Origin: Raphanus sativus
Lineage: Eukaryota > Streptophyta > Magnoliopsida > Brassicales > Brassicaceae
DNA length: 64,000 bases
Direction: 5' to 3'
Assembly: GCF_000801105.2 (NCBI RefSeq)
Contig: NC_079514.1
Coordinates: 28,048,227-28,112,226, forward strand
A model generated the notes under the pieces. That model saw only the letters and a list, made by a program, of their open reading frames with translations, was not told where the DNA came from and searched no databases. Of this stretch, positions 22,909-39,157 are shown one piece after another. How positions within the stretch are numbered: the first letter of the stretch is position 1; every line of letters begins with the position of its first letter. A program made the translations under genes and the position numbers.

Positions 22909-23720
22909 TGATAAAAAAACTCTTTCTATTTCACACAATTTAGCCAAACACATAGAGAATGTTTTTTTTTATTAATTTATAAAATCAGTTAGACATGAAC
23001 ATTATCTGTCCATTTAGATACATGTTGTTTCTTTCGGTTATTGTTTTTTTTTATTTTGAAACCAAGCCCCGCTTGAATATTATAAACTTATGCGTGTATT
23101 TTGAGCTGGGTCATTCTCGATCTGGATGAATTTGGTTCTGATGTATAGGAACCTAAAAATATCTAAATAACAAATGTATCTAAAACGGATTCGGATATTT
23201 GTAACAAAAATAGTCATATAACCTGATTCGGTCCAGGTCTTTTGAATATCGTTAGTTATATTATGATACATCTAAAATATATAACACAAATTATGAAAAA
23301 TAAATATCGATGTATAAAAAACTCTTTCTATTTCACTTAATTTAGCTAAACACATAGAAACCGTTTTTTTACTAATTTATAAAATCAGTTAGACGTGAAC
23401 ATTATCTGTCCATTTAGGTATATGTTGTTCCTTTTGGATATCGTTTTTTTTTAAACCAAGTCCCGCTTGAATATTATAAACTTATGTGTGGATTTTGAGT
23501 AGGGTCATTCTGGATCTGGATGAATTCGGTTCTGATGTATAGGAACCTAAAAATATCTAAATAACAATTGTATCTAAAACGGGTTCGGATATTTGTAACA
23601 AAAATAGCCATATAACCTGATTCGATCTAGGTCTTTCAATATCGTTAGTTATATTATTATACATCTAAAATATATAACGCTAATTATAAAAAATAAATAT
23701 TGATGTATAAAAATATATTT
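22909..23720. repeat. direct tandem duplication, unit about 400 bp
   Basis: The units at about 22909-23310 and 23311-23720 share, in order, actctttctatttcac, aaaatcagttagac, aacattatctgtccattta, cccgcttgaatattataaac, ggaacctaaaaatatctaaa and tagttatattat. They have diverged by scattered substitutions. No gene is present; the 63-residue minus frame in unit 1 is broken in unit 2. Confidence 0.8.
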
Positions 23721-25826: not shown

Positions 25827-26551
25827 TGATATTCGTGTTTACGCACACCAATTAACCTAATAAAATGGTATGTCGATATAGCACTTTAGGATCGAATCCG
25901 CAGAGACCAACTATTACACTTTATTTTTGTGGGATCAATATCAAGCTAAAACAATATGGGGGTTTTGATTGAGGGTAATGTGACAAGCAGCAAATAATGT
26001 AAATGTAAATTCAATTTAAAGAAAAGCCAGCCTAGGGTTTCTTCATCGGGTGCTAAAACTTGTGAGCTGAACAATTATTCAAGTGCTAATAAGAACAGTC
26101 TAGAACTCGGATCATTCAAGTAGAACAGCCCACTGTCGTGGTACTGCTCCCTATGCTGATCGATCTCACCGTCTAACTGTCGTTGAGGTGAGAAGCGATC
26201 ACAAGCAATAGAGATCAGGTCCGATAGGTTCACAGAACACCCTAATATCTACTTTCGCTGATTAGGGATGCAATGCTCATTGAAAACAGCTCTAGCAACC
26301 TATTACACAGTTAATGAACATGTTAAACCTATGATCTAACATTAAGCGGCCAGTTTAATGCAAGCAATAAAAACGGTTATGAATGAAGACAATCAAATGA
26401 TTCACTTATCTATGTTTAGCTCACGAAATTAACACCCTAGAACCCTAGACAAGCTAGCCGACTACTCAGCCATGACACAAGAGATCAAAGACATGGATAC
26501 TGAATAATACTTCATAAAAATAACAGAAACAAAGAGAGGGTTCAGGATAAT
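25827..26551 (-). repeat. 3' LTR of the outer element, distal part
   Basis: It begins on the plus strand tgatattcgtg, matching the right LTR at 37969-38708, and is cut at the ataat target site by the inner element. The rest of the same LTR resumes at 34288 and runs to about 34458. The right-hand copy at 38700-38712 reads straight through (ggataatcttctc) and shows the empty site. A word of about 20 bp present in the right LTR near 38000 is missing here. Confidence 0.85.
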
Positions 26552-27702
26552 TGATATATGGTGTTTTTCACATCATTGTATATATGTTTTCATTTGTTTC
26601 AAGTCACTGATTCGTGTCAGTCTAGTCCTTTTTGACCTTTTACAGGTCTGGAGTTAGTAGAAGAAAGAAGAGAAGGTGCCTGATGAAAAGAAGTCCTTTT
26701 GGAGCATTTCTGCGGAGAACAATCAAGAGAACAGTCCCGAGACTGTTCTCTCGCAAGCGGAACAAGCAGACGGAGTGATCCGGAGATTGTTCCAGATGAA
26801 TATGGAAACTCTTATTTCGGGAATTAAAGCCTTGTTGCCCAAATCTCTTTTCTTCTGATTGGCGCCTCCATATAAAATGCCATCTATCTATTTTCTATTT
26901 TTCTTACGCTAGTTTTTACGAGAGAACACTGAGTAATTGCGATCTGCAACTTGTAAGGGAGAAGAATCCATCCTCTCATAGAGAAGATCATCTGAACCCT
27001 ATTGTTTCATACTCTGTTCTTATGCAATTTTATTCAGGATTTATGTCTTTGTTTATTTGCATTATGATCGAGTAGTAACCTTGCTCGCCTAGGGTTTTAG
27101 GGTGTTGAGACATGAGCTAAACATAGATAAGCGATCCATAACTGTTCTTCATTCATACTGTTCTTACTGCTTTCATTAACCTGATCACTTGATGTTAGAT
27201 CATTAGTTCATCACCTAGTTAACCGCTTAGGATGATAACTTGACATGTATTGAATGAGCTTAGTATCCCTAATCAGCGAAAGTAGATATTAGGGTGGTAA
27301 GTGAACTGATCGGACCTGTTCTCTAAAGCTTGCAATCGATCCTCATCCCAACGACAGTAAGGTGGTGAGATCGATCTGCAAAGCGATCACTGCCACGACA
27401 GTGGAGTGTTCCAGCTGAGTGATCCGAGTTCTAGAAAGCACTTCATCGCGCTTGAATAATTGTTTGGCTCCAATTCAACACCCAATGAAATACCCTAGGC
27501 TAGCTCTTGTTTAATTAAATCAATCTCGTGTTTATTTTGCTTGTTAACTATCGCCTCTTTCAACCAAAATTATATCTTCTTCTTAGCTTGATTTCGGAAC
27601 TTATAGAACTAGAGTGTAGACTGGTCCTCTGGATTTGAATCTCAAGTACTACAATTGCAACTGTTAACTTGGCAGTAGCAAGGATTCATTTTTAGTGTAT
27701 CA
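26552..27702 (+). repeat. 5' LTR of the inner element
   Basis: It starts TGATATATGG and ends TGTATCA, in the TG...CA form, and matches 33137-34287 along its whole length. The segment around 26870-26885 (ccatataaaatgcc) may hold the LTR TATA box. The primer-binding site begins five bases after the LTR. Confidence 0.92.
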
Positions 27703-27707
27703 AGTTT

Positions 27708-27782
27708 TGGCGCCGTTGCCGGGGATCGAACCCGGGTCACCCGCGTGACAGGCGGGAATACTTACTACTATACTACAACGAC
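27708..27782 (-). tRNA. full-length tRNA-Asp(GTC) retrocopy, CCA included, in primer-binding-site position
   Basis: The minus strand carries all 72 nucleotides of a plant tRNA-Asp plus the 3' CCA. The acceptor arm is gtcgttg pairing with caacggc, the anticodon loop ctgtcac has anticodon GTC, and the T-loop ggttcgatcc is perfect. One base differs from the plant sequence I remember: the D-loop GG reads AG. A primer-binding site normally matches only the last 18 tRNA bases (here 27708-27725). Nuclear tRNA genes lack CCA, and the copy ends exactly at tRNA position 1, where the RNase H coding sequence begins. The simplest reading is complete reverse copying of the primer tRNA followed by template switching. 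Box A and box B remain, so Pol III transcription is conceivable, but function as a tRNA gene is unproven. Confidence 0.93.
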
Positions 27783-29463
27783 AGAGAAGGAGCTCCTTGC
27801 CATCGTGTTCGCTTTTGAAAAGTTCAGATCCTATCTGGTTGGATCAAAGGTGATTGTGCATACAGACCACGCGGCTCTCAAGTACCTACTCACAAAGAAG
27901 GATGCTAAACCGCGGCTCTTAAGATGGATTCTCTTGCTCCAAGAGTTTGATCTGGAGATAAGAGATAAGAAGGGGGTTGATAATGGAGTAGCAGATCATC
28001 TCTCCAGGATGAAAGTGTCAGATGAGACTGTTCTTGATGAGGAACAACCGATGGAGTACGTCAATGCGATTGGTCTGCACAACATGGAGCAGTCGTCACC
28101 TGTCATCAAGGACTGTTCCCGCGTGGAAGGAGCATTCGTTGCAGTGATCCAGAAGGAGTACCTGAATCTTCCATGGTTTGCTGAGATTGCCAACTTCTTG
28201 GCAGCTGAGAAAGAGCCTTTGAGGTTCACTGGGAATGAGAAGAGGAAATTTCTAAGGGAGGCAAGGCACTACTTCTGGGATGAGCCGTATCTCTATCGGC
28301 AAGGCAAGGATGGGATCTTCAGGAGATGTGTTCCAGAGGCTGATATTCCAGGGATCCTTCACCACTGCCACGGTTCCTCTTATGCTGGTCACTTTGCCAC
28401 CTTCAAGACAGTTTCCAAGATCCTCCAAGCCGGTTTCTGGTGGCCCACTATGTTCAGAGATGCTCATGCTTTCTTATCTCGATGCAATTCATGCCAAAGG
28501 ATGGGGAGTATAAGCAAGAGAAACGAGATGCCTCAGAACTACATCTTGGAAGTTGAAGTGTTCGATTGCTGGGGGATCGATTTCATGGGACCCTTCCCAG
28601 TCTCTCACAAGAACGAGTACATCCTAGTTGCTGTGGACTATGTCTCCAAGTGGGTAGAAGCGATTGCTAGTCCAACCAATGATGCGCGAGTTGTAACCAA
28701 GATGTTCACCTCCATCATCTTTCCAAGATTTGGAGTGCCTAGAGTGGTTATAAGCGATGGTGGAACTCACTTTATCAACAAGTTGTTCCAAGGATTGCTG
28801 AGCAAGAATGGTGTCAAACACAAGGTTGCAACCGCCTATCATCCTCAAACAAGTGGTCAAGTGGAAGTTTCCAACAGAGAGATCAAGAACATCCTACAGA
28901 AGACGGTCAACACCACCCGCAAGGACTGGTCCCTTAAGCTTGACGATGCTCTCTGGGCGTACAGAACAGCCTACAAGACCCCTCTAGGGACCACTCCCTA
29001 TCATCTGGTCTATGGCAAGGCGTGCCACCTACCTGTTGAGCTAGAGTACAAGGCCGCTTGGGCTGTCAAACTACTCAACTTCGACATCAAACCCGCCAAG
29101 GAGAGGCGAACCATTCAGATCCACGAGTTGGAGGAGATCAGGCATCTGGCCTATGAGAGTTCTAAGATCTACAAGGAAAAGACCAAGGCGTTCCATGACA
29201 AACGGATCATCAGCAGAAGCTTTGCTCCGAACGATCAGGTCTTACTCTTCAATTCACGGGTTAAGCTGTTCCCTGGAAAGCTTAAGTCCAGATGGTCCGG
29301 ACCTTTCACCATTAAGGAGGTTTGCCCTTATGGAGCTGTTGTGTTGCTGGACACAAGAGGTGGAGAATTTGTTGTCAATGGTCAGCGTCTAAAGCCATAT
29401 CTTGCTGACACAACAATCGCTGAAGGTGTAGAGATACCCTTAAGCGATCCACCTCAAGCCTAA
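27745..29463 (+). CDS. RNase H-integrase polyprotein fragment (Ty3/gypsy pol)
   Basis: An open frame of 572 codons runs from a GTG at 27745, inside the antisense tRNA, to the stop at 29461-29463. The first in-frame ATG is at 28009. The first dozen residues are encoded by the tRNA complement. Pol then begins with [15 protein letters not shown] and the RNase H motif [10 protein letters not shown]. The integrase has its zinc motif ([11 protein letters not shown] ... CNSCQRMG, about residues 206-254) and the three catalytic acids in GIDFMG (Asp279), ISDGGTHF (Asp338) and [10 protein letters not shown] (Glu374). A basic C-terminal region follows. Protease and reverse transcriptase are missing, and there is no natural start codon, so the frame is intact in sequence but defective as a gene. 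Confidence 0.9.
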
Positions 29464-30205
29464 TCGGCTCATTGAAGTCAAGCTAGTGACAGAAAACTAG
29501 CGCTTGGTGGGAGGCAACCCACTGGTGAGTGTAAATATTGTTTTCTTTTTGTCTTTATCTTTCTAGGAACTAACTTGCAGGTTGAAAAAATCAAGAAAAT
29601 TCGAGATCACTCCAGAAGAGCACTACAGCGGTTGTTCCGCCGATTGTTCCAGGTACGTGCTCGAACAAAAAAAAATATATAAAAAAAAGAGAAGGGGAAG
29701 CGGTTTTGATGGACCTATTTAAGGCCCAAACACTCCACTTCCCCACTTCATCTCTCTCGCCGCAAACCACCCCCTTAGAACCCTAAAATCGCGAACACAC
29801 ATCCCTCTCTTTCTCATCGATTTTGGTTCTAACCTCTTTGGATTCTCTTGAGATTGGGTTGTTTTGCAGGAATCACCTCTCCAATCAAGGTAATCGGACA
29901 AGAACTCTCCCCCTTTTGCGCATGCAAATCGCGATTTGGGAGTGATTTCTTGGGTCTCTCTTTCCTTTATGCTTTGCGATTTCATCCTAAGTTGTAGCTC
30001 TTGATAGTATACTTGCTACTAGGATTGAACTCATGATTGATTTTCAATGGAAGAGGAACCGATTTGTTGCTTGTGATTCTTGGCCTTTGCGATTTCTACT
30101 GTTGAGATTGAGGCTTGTGTAGGTTGTCTAGTAATCGATGGACTTGGATAGAACAAGAAGATTGGATTGTTCCATCGTTGCTAGAACAACCGACGAACTG
30201 TGCTG
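29464..30205 (+). other. noncoding interval between pol and the ATHILA ORF, with possible internal promoter
   Basis: After pol come a short conserved block (gcttggtgggaggcaaccca, also present in the outer element near 35460) and an A-rich stretch. At 29716-29723 a TATA-like word, TATTTAAG, is followed by a leader resembling a plant gene start (cttcatctctctcgccgc, then agaaccctaaaatcg). At about 29870 ttttgcag resembles a splice acceptor. I infer a separate transcript or a spliced RNA for the downstream ORF. Confidence 0.45.
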
Positions 30206-31648
30206 ATGTTGGGTTTTGCTGTTGTTTTGCATATGCCTCCAAAGATGAGAAACGCTAGAACAGCCAAAAGCACAGCTTCTCCAGCCGCGAGTGCTCCACC
30301 TGGTTACCCATGGCCGAACAAGAATGAGGGCGAGCCGATCGACCTCAATGATCCGATGCTCCTTGACTTCAACGTTGAGGGATGGGACAAGGAGTCGGCA
30401 GCGATATACAACAGGCTCCTCCTAGCAGAGATCCTGCCCACGCGGTTCGTGCACCAGCCTACACTAGGCGCTCTAGGCCTTGACACTGAGGTGTTCGACA
30501 CGATGCAAGCTATGGGATTCATGCCTCTCTGCTACCAGGCCCAGGTTCTCTACCCAGACTTGGTCAGGCAAGTGCTCGCGACGTGCAAGATTACTTACCA
30601 GAACCCCAATGCGCCTACGTACGAGAACTGCTCCTTCTCCTTCATGGCTGATGGCAAGTTCTGCACTATCTCTCTCAACGATCTGAACGCGCTACTCGAG
30701 ATTGCAGACACGCCAAAGGGAGTTTCAATGGAAAAGAAGTTCAAGCCGGCAGACATCTTTTGGGATCTCATCGCAGCCGGCAAGTTCACCTCTCGCAAGG
30801 CCTATCAGTCGCAGATCCGGAACCCTGCTATCCGGATCATTGCCAAGATCGTGTCCAATGTCCTGTTCGCGAAGGAGTACACCTCCAAGATCACGAATGG
30901 AGAGCTCCAGGTTCTCTACACGGGACTTGAGGACGAGATGCGCAGAGAGAACATCACCCCGATCCAGGAAGTCAAGACCAACCCAAGGTTCCATCTCATA
31001 TCCATGTTCGCTAACCGCAGAGACACCCTGATTCGGACTGACGATAAGAAGGGTCGATGCGGCAGTCTGCTCACACCATTGTTCCAGCGCTTCAACATCA
31101 ACCTCAGCTCCTACAAGGTTGTCTCTGAGATGGAGTACATCGATACTCCTTACCTGATCGCATGCCACATCTTGCGCGACGAGACCACCTACAAGTTCCA
31201 GGATAAGGAAGGGAACCCTCTGTACTGCAAGCTCCATATGCCTGGGTTCACAGACTTCCTATCCCTGGAGAACATTGTGTTCTCACTCGATGAAGAGCAC
31301 CTCTGCGATGATCCGAAGGCGCCGGTTCAGCACGATGACGAAGACATGGATGATGTGGAGCATGTGACTCCACCGGCTGATGGTGAGTATGACTTGGAGG
31401 ACTTCACCGATGTGACTGATGATCACGCCTACAGACGCTGGATGGTTGAGTCTCAGAAGAAGAACAACAGCCTCATGAAGAGGATACTCAAGGCGATCAC
31501 AGGCGGCTGCATTGGAGCCCAGAAGAAGCGTACGCCACAGCGTACAAGGCGCCCAGGCAAGGAACAAGCAGGAACATCGACTGGAGCAGAGAGACTGCCG
31601 AGGAACAGGAGGACAGCTGGTCACTCCGGTAGCGGCGATTCAGACTGA
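30206..31648 (+). CDS. ATHILA ORF (env-position protein of Athila elements)
   Basis: A 480-residue frame from the ATG at 30206; a second in-frame ATG at 30233 (MPPKMRNARTAKS) may be the true start. The sequence resembles the Arabidopsis Athila 'ORF-1' family (Pfam ATHILA), which sits downstream of pol in the place of env. Visible features are a basic N-terminus, a central folded-looking part with many Phe, Leu and Tyr residues (about 60-370), an acidic stretch (HDDEDMDDVEH) near residue 395, and a strongly basic, Arg- and Gly-rich C-terminus from about 440. No signal peptide or clear membrane helix is seen, so it is probably not an envelope glycoprotein. The frame has no stops and GC-rich codons. 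Confidence 0.8.
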   Translation: MLGFAVVLHMPPKMRNARTAKSTASPAASAPPGYPWPNKNEGEPIDLNDPMLLDFNVEGWDKESAAIYNRLLLAEILPTRFVHQPTLGALGLDTEVFDTMQAMGFMPLCYQAQVLYPDLVRQVLATCKITYQNPNAPTYENCSFSFMADGKFCTISLNDLNALLEIADTPKGVSMEKKFKPADIFWDLIAAGKFTSRKAYQSQIRNPAIRIIAKIVSNVLFAKEYTSKITNGELQVLYTGLEDEMRRENITPIQEVKTNPRFHLISMFANRRDTLIRTDDKKGRCGSLLTPLFQRFNINLSSYKVVSEMEYIDTPYLIACHILRDETTYKFQDKEGNPLYCKLHMPGFTDFLSLENIVFSLDEEHLCDDPKAPVQHDDEDMDDVEHVTPPADGEYDLEDFTDVTDDHAYRRWMVESQKKNNSLMKRILKAITGGCIGAQKKRTPQRTRRPGKEQAGTSTGAERLPRNRRTAGHSGSGDSD

Positions 31649-33136
31649 GTCCGAAAGGACTATTTCTATCCCTTGTCTTATCCATCTGAACTATTTATTT
31701 TTCATGTTATTTGCTTCTGTTTGGTTTGTTTCAGCTTCCTCTGATTTATTTTCACAACCAGGGATGGTGTGAACTAAGTCTGGGGGAGCGATTGAACTAT
31801 ATTCGCTTGTGTCATTTTCATGTTTTTATCGAGTCAGTTTTGGGATCGAGTCAGTCAAAACTATTGTGGGAATCAGGACCTTATTTTGTGATGCTCTTTA
31901 ACCACCTCGTGCTTTAACCTTCTTATTCAGTGACCTTAGCAGTGATGAAAGACCCACACATGGACCTGGAACACCCTGATTTATCTCATTTGACACTCCA
32001 GAAGTTCTATACCGATCAGGTTACACTGGGCAGACTTAACTCCACTTTATCTGAACCTAATCTGGACTTTAATTCTTCTTGTCATGGGCACTAGATCAGG
32101 GTAGAATGAGAACTACACTCAGGACTTCTTATCCGATTTTTACCCCTCTTGCTGTTCCTGAGTGGCTAGCTCATCTTTAGCTAGTTCCCACCTTGAACCC
32201 TGACCTTTTGTTCCACCCTCATGCATTTGCTTTTCTAGTACTTTATGTGCAGATATGTGCAAAATGGTCGGAGAGGAAAGGATCGACGCAATTCTTACTC
32301 ATCAATGCTCACGCAGTAGAAGAAGGCGGAACAATCAGCGTAGACAAGAGAACAACCAGAGTGCATGTTCCGATACCATAGAGAACAACGAAGGAGTAAG
32401 TGGCTAGAACAGACCAGAATGAATCACCAGTGGCATCATGTACATCACTTGTTACCTCCTTGCTTGTCACTCCAGCATTTTGTAGTTCGATATATATAAT
32501 ATATATATATATATAAAAAGAGAAGTTGTTTGTTTTTGCTTTGATTTACTGGTGACGAGAAGGGGAATAATCTATGATGCATGCCACTGGGAAAGTTGAG
32601 AAAGTAATGGTGGTTTCAGTGAAGTGTTCTGAAGGGGAAGTTGAATCACGCAGAGCAGCCCTATGATCGATCTATCGGAGAGCAGTCCGATTAGCAGAGA
32701 TGAGTAAGGACTGTGGACCTCAATGGAGCCTTCCTCTCACGACCATTTTGTGCGATATCCTGCACCCGCTCTTGGTAAACCCTAAGCACTCTTGAACTCC
32801 ACCATAAAAGTTAGCATGTTCTATACCTAGCCCGTTCTCTCTGAGTAGAGCCTGTGACAAGAAGCTCACGCTGATCTTAATTGAACATAAGGAGTTCTGT
32901 CTCGAAAGTGTTGCCTTTTCAGGTTGAGATGTAGAGTAAGGAGCCGATCTTCGAACAGCGATCAGGGGGTTCTCAGTAAGTGTGTGTGGTCCTAATCTAC
33001 AGCTTGTATGGTTCAGAGATTTGTGGTAAGAGTATGGTTGCTGAAAATAAGCGAGTTCCCACGCTTTCAAACCTTTCTCCCTGTTCTTGGTACTTGCCTT
33101 GTTCGAGGACAAACAAGGATCTAAGTCTGGGGGAAT
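31649..33136 (+). other. 3' untranslated part and polypurine tract of the inner element
   Basis: No gene. It contains two copies of aagtctgggggа-type purine tracts: one just after the ATHILA ORF (about 31775-31787) and one directly before the 3' LTR (about 33123-33136), the latter being the polypurine tract. A TA microsatellite lies near 32490-32515. Blocks around 31900-32290 are mirrored on the opposite strand in the outer element at 34620-35040, showing that the two elements belong to related subfamilies. Confidence 0.75.
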
Positions 33137-34287
33137 TGATATATGGTGTTTTTCACATCATTGTATATATGTTTTCATTTGTTTCAAGTCACTGATTCGT
33201 GTCAGTCTAGTCCTTTTTGACCTTTTACAGGTCTGGAGTTAGTAGAAGAAAGAAGAGAAGGTGCCTGATGAAAAGAAGTCCTTTTGGAGCATTCCTGCGG
33301 AGAACACTCAAGAGAACAGTCCAGAGACTGTTCTCTCGCAAGCGGAACAAGCAGACGGAGTGATCCGGAGATTGTTCCAGACGAATATGGAAACTCTTAT
33401 TTCGGGAATTAAAGCCCTGTTGCCCTAATCTCTTTTCTTCTGATTGGCGCCTCCATATAAAACGCCATCTATCTATTTTCTATTTTTCTTACGCTAGTTT
33501 TTACGAGAGAACACTGAGTAATTGCGATCTGCAACTTGTAAGGGAGAAGAATTCATCCTCTCATAGAGAAGATCATCTGAACCCTATTGTTTCATACTCT
33601 GTTCTTATGCAATTTTATTCAGGATTTATGTCTTTGTTTATTTGCATTGTGATCGAGTAGTAACCTTGCTCGCCTAGGGTTTTTAGGGTGTTGAGACATG
33701 AGCTAAACATAGATAAGCGATCCATAACTGTTCTTCATTCATATTGTTCTTACTGCTTTCATTAACCTGACCACTTGATGTTAGATCATTAGTTCATCAC
33801 CTAGTTAACCGCTTAGGATGATAACTTGACATGTATTGAATGAGCTTAGTATCCCTAATCAGCGAAAGTAGATATTAGGGTGGTAAGTGAACTGATCGGA
33901 CTTGTTCTCTAAAGCTTGCAATCGATCCTCATCCCAACGACAGTTAGGTGGTGAGATCGATCTGCAAAGCGATCACTGCCACGACAGTGGAGTGTTCCAG
34001 CTGAGTGATCCGAGTTCTAGAAAGCACTTCATCGCGCTTGAATAATTGTTTGGCTCCAATTCAACACCCAATGAAATACCCTAGGCTAGCTCTTGTTTAA
34101 TTGAATCAATCTCGTGTTTATTTTGCTTGTTAACTATCGCCTCTTTCAACCAAAATTATATCTTCTTCTTAGCTTGATTTCGGAACTTATAGAACTAGAG
34201 TGTAGACTGGTCCCCTGGATTTGAATCTCAAGTACTACAATTGCAACTGTTAACTTGGCAGTAGCAAGGATTCATTTTAGTGTATCA
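33137..34287 (+). repeat. 3' LTR of the inner element
   Basis: Same length and ends as 26552-27702. The differences seen by eye are mostly transitions (for example t/c at 26726 versus the matching position here). It is followed directly by the ataat duplication and then by the resumed LTR of the outer element. Confidence 0.92.
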
Positions 34288-35498
34288 ATAATCTTCTCTA
34301 TGGAGAGAGAGATGGAGTCTTCTCCCTTTACAATAAGCAAATCCAATAATCTAAAAGTCTCCAATGGTTTCTTGTGTCTAGAATAGCGTAGAATGATAAT
34401 GAGAAAACAGAAAATATGATATATCAAAGCCACAGGCGGCTGGGAGAGAAAAAGAGGTAACATGTGATGTTTGGATTGCCACTGGTGGTTCTTCTGGTTC
34501 AAATCATTCTGGTTCTCCACCCATGTTCTTGCACAGCTCATTGGTTATGGAGCGGTTGCTCCCTTAATCTGCTTGTTCTCCTTCTGACTGAATCTGCGCA
34601 GCAGTAACGAGTAAGAGGCTGCGTCGATCCTTTCCTCTCCGACCTTTTTGCACATATCTGCACATAGAACACTGAAAAACAAATGCATGAAGGTGGAATA
34701 AAGGCTAAGGCGCAGGGTGGGAACTAGCTAAAGGTGAGCTAGCCACTTAGGAACAACAAGATGGATAGAAAGAATAAGAAGTCCTGAGTGTAGTTCTCGT
34801 TTCCCTGATCTAGTGCCCATAACAAGAAGAATTTCAGTCAAGATTAGGTTCAAGTTAGGTGGAGTTAAGTCTACCCAGTGTAACCTGATCGGCTGAGAAC
34901 TTCTGGAGAATCAAGTGAGATATGTCAGGGTGTTCCAGGTCCACATGTGTGTCTTTCGCCACTGCTAAGGTCACTGAATAAGACAACTAAAGCACGAGGT
35001 GGTTAGTGATCAACACAGAATAATGTCCTAATTCCCACAAAACTTTGACTGACTCGATCCTAAAAACTGACTCAGACTGACTCAAAAGATAAACAAAAGA
35101 AAGAAACGAGTTAGTAAACGACGAAGACCCTCCTCCAGACTTACTTCACAACGTCTCGGTGTGAAAATAAATCAGAGAGAAGGTGAAAACCAGAATATAC
35201 AATTTTTTTTTGGTTGAGATACTTACCTGGAGCGGGTGCTCCGAAAAAATCTGGGTGTTCTGTCGCCAGATTTTCACCTGGGCGGTTGTTCTTGGCTCAT
35301 GCAGAACAGAGAGCTCCGTTTCTGCAACCCAGAATTTTTCGAAGTATCTCGAATTTTTCTGCTTTTTGACCTGAAACTCAATAAACTAAAACGAAAATAA
35401 GCAAACAAAAACAAAACCAATTTATATTTACACTTACCAGTGGGTTGCCTCCCACCAAGCACTTGGTTAAAGTCACTAGCTTGACTTGGTGACAGGGA
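34288..35498 (-). other. outer element: remaining 3' LTR piece (to about 34458) and noncoding 3' region
   Basis: 34288-34458 matches 38704-38874 of the intact LTR. From about 34459 the sequence departs and instead matches, in inverse orientation, the post-pol region of the inner element. The landmark caacccactgg block is at about 35445-35462, and further landmarks lie at 34620-34750. No coding frame is supported; the short frames here are shadows. Confidence 0.7.
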
Positions 35499-37811
35499 TC
35501 AGTCGGGTTGAGCATGAGGGTTTGTTCCAAAACAAGCTCCACAATCTGACATGTTCAGCTTCAAAACTCTGCTCAACAACCCTTTCACAGCAGCTTCTCC
35601 TTTCTCTTTCAGCTCATCAGTGAGAATAACTCTGACTTTAGAGAAAGATTTAGAGGTACCCTTGCACTTTACCTCATACTCAATGGATTTCTCATCACAC
35701 CAGTGAGGTGTCAAAGTCATAGTAGGATCTCCTTTGACCCTTTTCTTCTGGACTTTCTCTTTCACCCTTGCATTCCCACTGAGTTTCTTGGTATCATTGT
35801 GAGGATCTCCATTCAGAACTTCCTTGAACTCACTGTTTTTACCAAGCTCCTTTCTTGGAACAACCTTCTGCTTTTCTCCACTGAACACTGAGATGCAAGA
35901 GGCGTGTAGTTTCTGGAATCTGGTGGGAACAGCCTGATAAAAGACATTCTTGTTGATGTGGGAGAAGGAGACTCTCTTATTAGGCATATCAACGATTGCT
36001 CCCACTGTAGCCATAAATGTCCTTCCTAAGATCAAAAGCATCTCATGATCCTTGTTCATCTCAACAACCTGAAATTCAGTATGGAGAACGCAGTCCCCAA
36101 CTTGGACACGAAGGTTGCGAATAGTGCCATAAGGAACTGCTCTGGAAGAGTTTGCAAAAGTCAGAGTCACCTGAGAAGGCTCAACCTCAGTAATGTCCAA
36201 CTTGTCTACAATCGCTTTTGAGACAAGATTCACACAAGATCCGGAGTCACAAAGAGCTTTCTCAAATTTTACTCCAGCAATGGAACATGGAAAAGCAAAT
36301 GTTCCAGGGTCATCAACCTTAGGCAATACCTTCAGGTGTCTAGGTGGAATCGGATAGGGAACCTTAGGAACATAAACTCGCACTGGTGGAATATCAGTAG
36401 ATCCGTCGGGAGCGGGAGCAGTCGCGGGAGCAGTTGCGGGAGCAGTCGCGGGAGCAGTCACTCTAGAGCTGGCAGACTGCTCTGTTCTCTGTTCTGCGCC
36501 CAGAACAGTCTCAGCAAACAGTTGTTCCGCTTGTTTTTCCTCAGATTTATCACGTCTCTGCTCGGTTGCATTACAATGCTCAACCCTAGGATTCATCACA
36601 CTTTTTCCACGAATGATCTCTTGCTGTCTTTTAACAGTTTCAGCAGTTTGAGCAAGCTGAACATCTATCTTCTTTATGTGGTTGCTCACAGTATCATATT
36701 TTGAATTCAGCTCGGTGAACATGCTGTCCATCCTGGTGTTGATGTATGTGGTAACCTGATTCAGTGCCTTGACCTGAAGTTGCTGGCTCTGGAGCATCTG
36801 CTGCATCATAATGTTCAGATTTTTCAGATCATCTGGTGGACTGTTCCCTGCAGTCGGAGCACTCGCGGCTGGAACAGTCTGCTGATTGCTCTGCGGGATG
36901 GTGTTCTGATATCCAGATCCTTGTGTCTGGTTGTTCTGCAATAGCTGATCGACCTTAGCTGTTAGCTCATCAATTTTCTGGGTGTGTACACTGTTCCCTC
37001 TCTTGGAGTGGTTGCTCTCCTGATTCTCATTGGCTGAGCTAGCTGCCATGTTCTCAATCAGCTTGAGCGCTCCATCAGTGGTCTGAGTCATGAAGTCTCC
37101 ATTGCTCGAAGAGTTTAGAGCACCTTGGTATTTCCAGTCCACCCCATCATAGAAAATGCCCAGGAGGTAATCATCATCAAATCCATGGTGAGGGCATTCT
37201 CTCTGGTAGTCATTGAAGCGCTCCCATGCGTCACAAAAAGGCTCATCATGAAGCTGTCTGAATGAGGTGATCTTGTTCCTCAATGCAGCTGTTCTCGCCT
37301 TAGAGTAGAAATGGTTGAGGAACGCTGATCGGACCTGTTCCCATGAAGTGAGAGAGCCGGTAGGGAGGGAGTTCAACCACCGTGCAGCTTTTCCATCAAG
37401 AGAGAATGGGAATAGCATGCACTTGATGTAGTCTGGTGGCACACCATTCGCACGAGTAAAACTGCAGACTTTTTCAAAATTCTCAATATGCTCCATTGGA
37501 ATTTCTGCAGAGAGACCAGAGAACACCTTTCTCTGCACCAGATCAATCAAAGAAGGCTTGATCTCGAAGTCCTGCCTGGTGCAGAGTGGAGGAACCATGG
37601 CAGAGCGCGTAGTAGGAATGTTCCGCGGAAGGTTTCTCTCCCCGATTGGAACAGTCTGCGCTGCTTGTTCCTGCCGCGCGAGAGCAGCCTGTTGAGCAGA
37701 TTGTTCTGCAGCTGCTTGCTGAGCTTGGATGGTCTGCTGCATCTGAAGCATCTGCTGTTGCATCAGTTGCATTGCTGCAGCGAGATCATTCTGTTGGCCG
37801 TGATCACCCAT
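35499..37811 (-). CDS. gag-aspartic protease polyprotein of the outer element
   Basis: A 770-residue frame starts at MGDHGQQND (37811). The frame stays open upstream to a TTG at 37892, which is unlikely to be used. A Gln-rich coiled N-terminus (residues about 10-50) precedes the retrotransposon gag domain (about 85-215, with FPFSLDGKAARWLNSLP and WERFNDYQRECPHHGF). A low-complexity linker with a PATA repeat follows (about 452-470), then a retropepsin-like protease with the catalytic motif CDSGSCVN (Asp522) and the later ILGRTFMATVGAIVD. I see no CCHC zinc knuckle. The frame stops at 35499 without any reverse transcriptase, so the product could form particles and be processed but could not replicate its own RNA. 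Confidence 0.9.
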   Translation of the reverse strand: MGDHGQQNDLAAAMQLMQQQMLQMQQTIQAQQAAAEQSAQQAALARQEQAAQTVPIGERNLPRNIPTTRSAMVPPLCTRQDFEIKPSLIDLVQRKVFSGLSAEIPMEHIENFEKVCSFTRANGVPPDYIKCMLFPFSLDGKAARWLNSLPTGSLTSWEQVRSAFLNHFYSKARTAALRNKITSFRQLHDEPFCDAWERFNDYQRECPHHGFDDDYLLGIFYDGVDWKYQGALNSSSNGDFMTQTTDGALKLIENMAASSANENQESNHSKRGNSVHTQKIDELTAKVDQLLQNNQTQGSGYQNTIPQSNQQTVPAASAPTAGNSPPDDLKNLNIMMQQMLQSQQLQVKALNQVTTYINTRMDSMFTELNSKYDTVSNHIKKIDVQLAQTAETVKRQQEIIRGKSVMNPRVEHCNATEQRRDKSEEKQAEQLFAETVLGAEQRTEQSASSRVTAPATAPATAPATAPAPDGSTDIPPVRVYVPKVPYPIPPRHLKVLPKVDDPGTFAFPCSIAGVKFEKALCDSGSCVNLVSKAIVDKLDITEVEPSQVTLTFANSSRAVPYGTIRNLRVQVGDCVLHTEFQVVEMNKDHEMLLILGRTFMATVGAIVDMPNKRVSFSHINKNVFYQAVPTRFQKLHASCISVFSGEKQKVVPRKELGKNSEFKEVLNGDPHNDTKKLSGNARVKEKVQKKRVKGDPTMTLTPHWCDEKSIEYEVKCKGTSKSFSKVRVILTDELKEKGEAAVKGLLSRVLKLNMSDCGACFGTNPHAQPD

Positions 37812-37947
37812 GATGGTGTTGGTTGGCCTTGATTGTTGTCTGTTATGATTTTCTAAACCTTGCGATCTCCTGTAACAAAGAGAAAAGAGCAAGTTAGAGG
37901 TCTTAGACTAAATAAATAACCGAAAAATAAAAGGTAAAAAAAGATGG

Positions 37948-37965
37948 TCCCCGGCAACGGCGCCA
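37948..37965 (-). other. primer-binding site for tRNA-Asp (outer element)
   Basis: The minus strand reads TGGCGCCGTTGCCGGGGA, 18 bases complementary to the 3' end of tRNA-Asp, three bases after the LTR. The next two bases are cc, whereas the tRNA complement continues tc. The match therefore ends where expected, in contrast to the extended copy in the inner element. Confidence 0.92.
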
Positions 37966-37968
37966 AAT

Positions 37969-39157
37969 TGATATTCGTGTTCACGCACACCAATTAACCT
38001 AATGTGCACACTACCACAATCGAATGGTATGTCGATGTAACACTTTAGGATCGAATCCACAAAGCCAACTATTACACTTTATTTTTATGGGATCAATATC
38101 AAGCTAAAACAATATGGGGTTTTGATTGAGGGTAATGTGACAAGCAGCAAATAATGTAAATGTAAATTCAATTTAAAGAAAAGCCAGCCTAGGGTTTCTT
38201 CATCGGGTGCTAAAACTTGTGAGCTGAACAATTATTCAAGTGCTAATAAGAACAGTCTAGAACTCGGATCACTCAAGTAAAACAGCCCACTGTCGTGGTA
38301 CTGCTCCCTATGCTGATCGATCTCACTGTCTAACTGTCGTTGAGGTGAGAAGCGATCGCAAGCAATAGAGATCTGGTCCGATAGGTTCACAGAACACCCT
38401 AATATCTACTTTCGCTGATTAGGGATGCAATGCTCATTCAAAACAGCTCTAGCAACCTATTACACGGTTAATGAACAGGTTAAACCTATGATCTAACATT
38501 AAGCGGCCAGTTTAATGCAAGCAATAAGAACGGTTATGAATGAAGACAATCAAATGATTCACTTATCTATGTTTAGCTCACGAAATTAACACCCTAGAAC
38601 CCTAGACAAGCTAGCCGACTACTCAGCCATGACACAAGAGATCAAAGACATGGATACTGAATAATACTTCATAAAAATAACAGAAACAAAGAGAGGGTTC
38701 AGGATAATCTTCTCTATGGAGAGAGAGATGGAGCCTTCTCCCTTTACAATAAGCAAATCCAATAATCTAAAAGTCTCCAATGATTTCTTGTGTCTAGAAT
38801 AGCGTAGAATGATAATGAGAAAACAGAAAATATGATATATCAAAGCCACAGGCGGCTGGAAGAGAAAAAGAGGATAATTAGGGCAAATCCCGAAATAATA
38901 GTGGTTTCCATAAAAATCTCTGCTGCTGGAACAATCACTCGGGTTGTTCCGCTCGATCAGGAACAATCATCAGACTGTTCTTGGTGAAAATCACCAAACT
39001 GCACTGTTTTCTGCCTCTTTTGTTCCAGCATGTCCATCTCCCATCCAGTGCAACTCCAGACCTGTAATGACTCGAAAAGGACTAGAAAGACTCGATAAAG
39101 ACTTGAAAACCAATTATTAAACATATATACAATGATGTATAAAAACACCATATATCA
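37969..39157 (-). repeat. 5' LTR of the outer element (complete)
   Basis: On the minus strand it begins TGATATATGGTG at 39157 and ends CGAATATCA at 37969. Its beginning is similar to the LTR start of the inner element, showing shared ancestry. It includes the uninterrupted ataat site (38704-38708) that the inner element used in the other LTR. Confidence 0.9.

Follow-up and report, generated by a model that had tools for sequence, protein, structure and literature searches.

A window of 64,000 nucleotides (nt) from Raphanus sativus, located on contig C4 of a 433-Mb assembly that was also searched, contains an Athila-type element of the Ty3/gypsy superfamily that carries a complete copy of its own primer tRNA (all positions given here are those of the window). 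Between the 5′ long terminal repeat (LTR) and what is left of pol lies mature tRNA-Asp(GTC)-CCA in its full length of 75 bases (27708-27782, with the sense strand of the tRNA on the minus strand). A spacer, AGTTT (27703-27707, plus strand), separates it from the LTR; its first 18 bases (27708-27725, plus strand) are the standard primer-binding site (PBS) for tRNA-Asp, at whose end the matches of sibling elements stop; and pol begins at the very next base, 27783. The best explanation, to which we assign a probability of roughly 0.83, is that the whole tRNA was copied into plus-strand strong-stop DNA and that this product was joined at a microhomology during second-strand transfer. The original prediction for this stretch had placed the antisense tRNA five bases after the 5′ LTR, with pol at the next base, and had proposed that it was copied from the primer. 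The location is as described, and copying of the whole tRNA is borne out by the end of the copy at the 5′ nucleotide of the mature tRNA (G1) and by the presence of 12 other distinct LTR-tRNA junctions in this genome.

The identity of the captured sequence is clear. ARAGORN calls tRNA-Asp(gtc) on the minus strand at 27708-27782 and no other tRNA in the window, and the Rfam tRNA family matches 27711-27782 on the same strand (58 bits, E-value 2.9e-12). Among the plain tRNA-Asp genes of the genome that were read, 31 of 35 are identical over 72 nt, and the window copy departs from this commonest sequence at a single base, a T for C at 27766 (plus strand). The 35 genes have C at this position in 34 cases, A in one and T in none. 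Because the other distinct LTR-linked copies that reach this base have C (L079 after a one-base gap is allowed), the T looks like a change that arose after capture. The window sequence is unlike the plain genes in its surroundings, with TGG and an LTR on one side and pol on the other. The presence of CCA had been taken as evidence against a tRNA gene, an argument that has to be given up: its complement, TGG, is already part of the PBS and thus proves nothing, and the informative end is the stop at the mature 5′ nucleotide.

The site in pol to which the tRNA copy was joined can be seen in related elements. We fetched pieces of 4.5 kb at seven siblings (L052-L058), three of which (L053, L056 and L058) cover the wild-type acceptor with 90-97% identity over about 400 bases; L054 aligns only from query base 290 onward, and the pieces from L052, L055 and L057 gave no match to the acceptor region. 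The uninterrupted sequence at the pol breakpoint, which the original prediction had proposed to look for in siblings, was thus recovered: in L053, GCAACCAC precedes AGAGAAGG, whereas in the window ACAACGAC precedes the same AGAGAAGG, with minor deviations from L053 in L056 and L058. From the end of the PBS to the acceptor, the three siblings measure 4199, 4187 and 4182 bases. Given this spacing, the deletion would be accounted for by one jump across about 4.2 kb, and gag, protease, reverse transcriptase (RT) and half of RNase H can all have been lost in it, as judged from these alignments; deletion by intermediate steps is also possible. Thus, the proposed jump into pol with loss of gag, protease and RT agrees with the sibling acceptor, and its single step fits the spacing, but RNase H, which had been thought to be the start of the remaining frame, was itself cut. 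The microhomology suggested at the join (27781-27784, plus strand) is present in reduced form, since the strict overlap with the sibling acceptor is only two bases (AC, 27781-27782) and six of seven bases agree over CAACNAC.

When 301 bases around the junction were used as a query against the own genome, 40 places were scored out of 897 first-look candidates. The window alone matches across its junction, and no daughter copies of this junction were seen among these 40 places. In 37 of them, the match stops where the 18-base PBS does or no more than one base away; it runs into the tRNA in L002 (also L009 and L030) on contig C1, and it extends one base past the PBS in L003. As the ranking of the 40 places favours longer matches, two in 40 is not a frequency. 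L003 (G000:C2:10819248-10819374) has the PBS, one extra T and then directly TGATGATCC, and it lacks the leader stretch found in L005, L006 and L008; from this layout, it is possibly the product of a one-base over-extension followed by a microhomology jump.

A second search of the genome revealed that extended tRNA copies recur. The pattern, consisting of the PBS plus 16 further tRNA bases with at most three mismatches, gave 75 tRNA-Asp-like places, and the reversed control pattern gave none; it is blind to extensions much shorter than 34 bases and finds tRNA-Asp only at a PBS-like end or in genes. We read 51 of the 75 places, the other 24 starting with triplets other than TGG and probably being tRNA genes. 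Of those read, 15 stand behind an LTR end and 35 prove to be plain tRNA genes, which leaves one place (L081) that resembles a tRNA but lacks an LTR. Two pairs each count as one locus (L016 and L017 have common flanks, and L011 and L018 are 99.4% alike over 5.9 kb), so that there are 13 distinct junctions, the window included, at which tRNA sequence continues from the LTR and PBS beyond the usual 18 bases. What had been presented as a singular case is therefore a recurrent one, even if the window junction itself was seen once.

The ends of these copies are informative, with the caveat that the values may shift by a few bases owing to microhomology. The last tRNA base copied is base 1 in the window, L041, L043 and L044, base 2 in L045 and L079, base 5 in L047, base 8 in L051, base 9 in L048 and L049, base 16 in L009 and base 24 in L050; in L025 it is base 20, which is uncertain because of a contig end. 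Six of the 13 junctions thus end no more than one base from G1, and in none of the 13 does the 5′ flank of a tRNA gene appear beyond G1. This bears on the idea that a nuclear tRNA-Asp gene recombined with, or converted, the PBS of an element already integrated. There would be ample partners for such an exchange, given that at least 35 plain tRNA-Asp genes exist and that 15 PBS bases match them. A gene flank running into the junction had been named as the sign of such an event, and its absence from all 13, together with scattered acceptors, paired LTRs and target-site duplications (TSDs) that fit copying during replication, makes this origin highly improbable. The only full-length element with the same tRNA ahead of gag is L045, which belongs to another LTR family and has a breakpoint of its own, and we do not count it as speaking against copying of the primer. 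Insertion of a separate, self-primed tRNA complementary DNA (cDNA), as proposed in a published model for a tRNA-Gly copy beside proviruses of the human immunodeficiency virus (HIV) (PMC12220202), also seems very unlikely. All 13 junctions hold the cognate primer tRNA in antisense, continuous with the PBS and on the inner side of the LTR, a uniformity to be read with the reach of a pattern that finds only PBS-joined or genic tRNA-Asp.

The sequences joined to the tRNA copies are diverse. In L009 the acceptor is an A-rich stretch just behind pol; in L041 a further LTR copy starts at the acceptor or a short way past it; in L043 it is a sequence that in L048 lies behind the gag-protease frame; and in L045 it is the leader, followed by an open gag-protease frame of 938 codons. 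L047, L050 and L051 continue into a second LTR end with its PBS, L048 into an inverted PBS and LTR end (a fold-back), and L049 into repeated slips on the tRNA itself. The sole match for L044 is an inverted piece of L051 (pol) that starts 12 bases past the join, and no acceptor was found for L079 or L025. Short overlaps accompany these joins: ACGAC in L041, CGAC in L043, CAA in L047, AAT in L050, CTA in L051, GA in L045, AC in the window and two to four bases in L009, depending on the sibling. Summed over these eight joins (2-5 bases each), the microhomology was entered as 24 bases, more than in any of 200,000 random simulations; L044, L079 and L025 (acceptor not found), L048 (fold-back) and L049 (slip) were left out of this test.

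Several of the junctions lie in elements that were integrated as units. Two LTRs and a perfect TSD are found in the window (ATAAT), in L044 (ATTTT; the LTRs differ at 1 of 1361 positions) and in L045 (GGAAC; 5 of 1408), and L009 has two LTRs with a Kimura two-parameter (K2P) distance of 0.030 and flanks CTTCC and CTTGC, with one mismatch. The few LTR differences and the TSDs at several junctions indicate that some capture events are recent and that the process is repeated. Other loci are more complex, with an inverted LTR in L043 and a tandem of LTRs in L041 and L042. The latter two form an array of near-identical LTR-type segments, with LTR, tRNA, segment and PBS in tandem, and at 99.6% likeness they are probably one locus assembled twice.

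For the window element, ordinary integration is directly visible, as had been claimed. Its two 1151-bp LTRs, the ATAAT duplication and an empty site within the window show that the rearranged form was integrated in the ordinary way. The guest sits in an antisense LTR of a related element, the host, whose other LTR, at 37969-39157 (minus strand, limits by eye), carries the uninterrupted insertion site near 38704-38708. The host also provides an internal control, because in its standard 18-base PBS (37948-37965, minus strand) the match to the tRNA stops after exactly 18 bases and the leader and gag come next; the 18-base PBS is found twice in the window, and none is expected from 100 shuffles. 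These features argue against a chimera of genome assembly. Repeats do get misjoined, two of the 15 LTR-linked places duplicate others and L041 has a gap, but here the element around the join is coherent, with LTRs that match each other, a TSD and an empty site, and the 12 further distinct junctions are mostly on long contigs, so that we give such an artefact hardly any credence.

According to the standard scheme, synthesis of plus-strand strong-stop DNA extends over 18 bases of the tRNA and is halted by 1-methyladenosine 58 (m1A58), and a retained tRNA should lie at the outer edge of the 3′ LTR. The position of the copy inside the 5′ LTR therefore suggests that it was transferred as part of plus-strand strong-stop DNA, and the ends at or near the mature 5′ nucleotide, together with slippage on the tRNA in L049 and the fold-back in L048, speak for a 3′ end growing along a template of RNA. 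We propose that a full-length mature tRNA-Asp would prime minus-strand synthesis of the Athila element and that, during plus-strand strong-stop synthesis, RT would pass A58 and copy the tRNA to G1, yielding an LTR that ends in 75 bases of antisense tRNA. During second-strand transfer, the over-long 3′ end would fail to settle on the PBS complement; its last bases would instead be joined to the minus strand at a short stretch of microhomology within RNase H and be extended from there, so that about 4.2 kb with gag, protease, RT and half of RNase H would be skipped. Completion and normal integration of this rearranged DNA would follow. Passage of A58 has a parallel in HIV, where unmodified tRNA is copied to its 5′ end and where TRMT6-mutant cells give extension beyond A58 (PMC13191261).

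The structure and its boundaries, the acceptor in siblings, the TSD and the recurrence are read directly from the DNA, whereas we infer the strand and the timing of the jump as well as the agent of the join, which may be the RT of the element or host alternative end-joining. Indeed, it might have been host microhomology-mediated end-joining, and not primer extension, that linked over-long strong-stop DNA to a broken fragment of internal cDNA. The microhomologies of 2-5 bases and the mixed acceptors, including the inverted pol piece in L044, are compatible with this, and a plant review describes second-strand transfer as mediated by host alternative end-joining (PMC12786077), while the slippage in L049 and the fold-back in L048 resemble the work of a polymerase at a growing end. 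We regard this alternative as possible but on balance doubtful; it differs from copying followed by primer extension in the joining step alone, and our confidences in the two overlap.

Several points weigh against copying and transfer of the whole tRNA as we propose it. In HIV, strong-stop DNA whose end has reached the 5′ end of the tRNA is said to be inactive as a template (PMC13191261), and in Ty1 and Ty3 the primer-tRNA sequence is described as not inherited (PMC5371799). Furthermore, the strict microhomology at the window junction is only two bases, this junction was seen once, and the L041/L042 arrays, L043 and L044, with its inverted piece, need further steps.

The tRNA copy stops at tRNA bases 8-9 in three of the 13 junctions (L048, L049 and L051), with repeated backward slips at this point in L049 that give the impression of a block in the template. 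There is a weak case that these stops mark 1-methyladenosine 9 (m1A9), which has been described for archaeal and mammalian mitochondrial tRNAs (PMC7475180) and tabulated for a human tRNA-Asp, while we came across no data for plants. In L048 (oriented 5540) and L051 (oriented 2487), the leader-adjacent PBS matches the tRNA for 13 bases only (TGGCGCCGTTGCC), as if the PBS of these families were not renewed from the tRNA in each cycle. More broadly, we put forward, with somewhat less than even confidence, the idea that reading of the full-length primer tRNA is a regular side reaction in Athila-type elements and that rescue by microhomology continually supplies elements that are rearranged, non-autonomous and in some cases tRNA-bearing. 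The junctions would then be a fossil record of RT stops on natural modified tRNA, with the three stops at bases 8-9 marking one such place.

The guest element as a whole (26552-34287, plus strand, LTR to LTR) is flanked by ATAAT at 26547-26551 and 34288-34292. Its 5′ LTR (26552-27702, plus strand) runs from TGATATATGG to GTGTATCA, and its 3′ LTR (33137-34287, plus strand) is preceded by a putative polypurine tract, TCTGGGGGAAT (33126-33136, plus strand, by eye). The LTR pair has 15 substitutions over 1150 aligned positions, corresponding to about 0.44-0.51 million years under assumed rates of 1.5e-8 and 1.3e-8. The residual pol (27783-29463, plus strand) encodes the C-terminal part of RNase H and the zinc-binding and core domains of integrase, with the Pfam domains in the order RT_RNaseH (part), Integrase_H2C2 and rve, that is, RNase H before integrase; RNase H is cut in mid-domain, positions 48-105 of the 105 of RT_RNaseH remaining. 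The antisense tRNA had been thought to code for the first dozen residues of this frame. The frame is indeed open from 27679, but the tRNA part has no start codon and the first ATG, at 28009, is residue 111, so we rejected a translated tRNA as the N-terminus. Behind pol, a 487-aa open frame (30185-31648, plus strand) matches Pfam ATHILA ORF-1 (PF03078, E-value 6.9e-32).

The assignment to Athila rests on the order of RNase H and integrase, the ORF-1 frame behind pol, the tRNA-Asp PBS and the 5-bp TSD, RT itself being deleted. ORF-1 is typical and not universal, as it is present in 16% of Athila elements (PMC6317226). Among the best 120 of 7945 protein matches, the highest identity among named ones is to Brassica (B. 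carinata 89%, B. napus 88%), and the lowest E-values belong to Tanacetum proteins; the viral contigs searched gave no match. Host and guest complement each other like two halves. The host has kept gag and protease (35499-37907, minus strand), in a frame where no domain of RT, RNase H or integrase was found; the guest retains integrase and the Athila ORF without gag, protease and RT. Elsewhere in the window, at 22950-23720, there is a direct duplication with a spacing of about 393-400 bp whose parts are 87-93% alike.

The antisense-tRNA peptide also appears in 6 of 151 proteins (the 120 of 7945 matches listed, plus 2 and 29 new ones). In P0004 and P0121 (Tanacetum cinerariifolium) and P0122 (Vitis vinifera), the residue from the CCA complement precedes the peptide, as in the window; these are gene models and may serve as leads only. 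P0148, P0149 and P0150 (Stylosanthes, Linum and Ipomoea) have the antisense tRNA-Asp peptide without this residue and look like gene-model errors across ordinary tRNA genes. In the open-licence literature searched, we found no description of a complete primer tRNA copied into a plant LTR element, older subscription papers being mostly outside this coverage.

What we describe is a known side reaction of reverse transcription, here in the form of repeated inherited events in a plant genome. At the level of sequence, it is evidence that these plant elements prime their minus strand with a complete mature tRNA; for comparison, a plant review speaks of partial tRNAs, or tRNA-derived fragments (tRFs), as primers (PMC12786077). 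It also indicates that plus-strand synthesis copies the primer tRNA and that, unlike in Ty1 and Ty3 (PMC5371799), the copy can be transferred and inherited. The findings suggest that copying an intact primer tRNA too far can give rearranged, often shortened elements, and they offer a testable route to deletion derivatives, with A58 methylation and alternative end-joining as the expected controls.

Some features of this process are shared with other systems. Unintegrated retroviral circular DNA, as described in PMC12220202, may also contain a reverse-transcribed tRNA adjoining the LTR, explained by copying of a tRNA that served as primer, but there the tRNA is spurious and non-cognate and has lost some 5′-end bases, whereas the window copy is cognate, complete to G1, integrated and inherited. 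A tRNA copy is similarly tied to deletions of an integrated element in HIV, in proviruses that have a tRNA-Gly copy and large deletions (Gurgo and Franchini 2025, PMC12220202); in the window, the tRNA forms an extension of the PBS, inward of the 5′ LTR. With HIV tRNA-Lys3 lacking m1A58, plus-strand synthesis likewise passes A58, up to the tRNA 5′ end (PMC13191261), and while the over-extended ends are called inactive there, those of Raphanus are found in integrated elements. The Helenus terminal-repeat retrotransposons in miniature (TRIMs) are LTR elements that bear a tRNA-like sequence too, but theirs lies in the LTR, is not complementary to the PBS and is ascribed to insertion of a short interspersed nuclear element (SINE) (PMC10886601), whereas the sole tRNA of the window (27708-27782) lies outside both LTRs. 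Finally, Ty1 and Ty3, the latter in the same superfamily, are LTR elements with a host tRNA primer whose PBS is not inherited from copying of the tRNA (PMC5371799), whereas in the Raphanus elements tRNA sequence has clearly been inherited.
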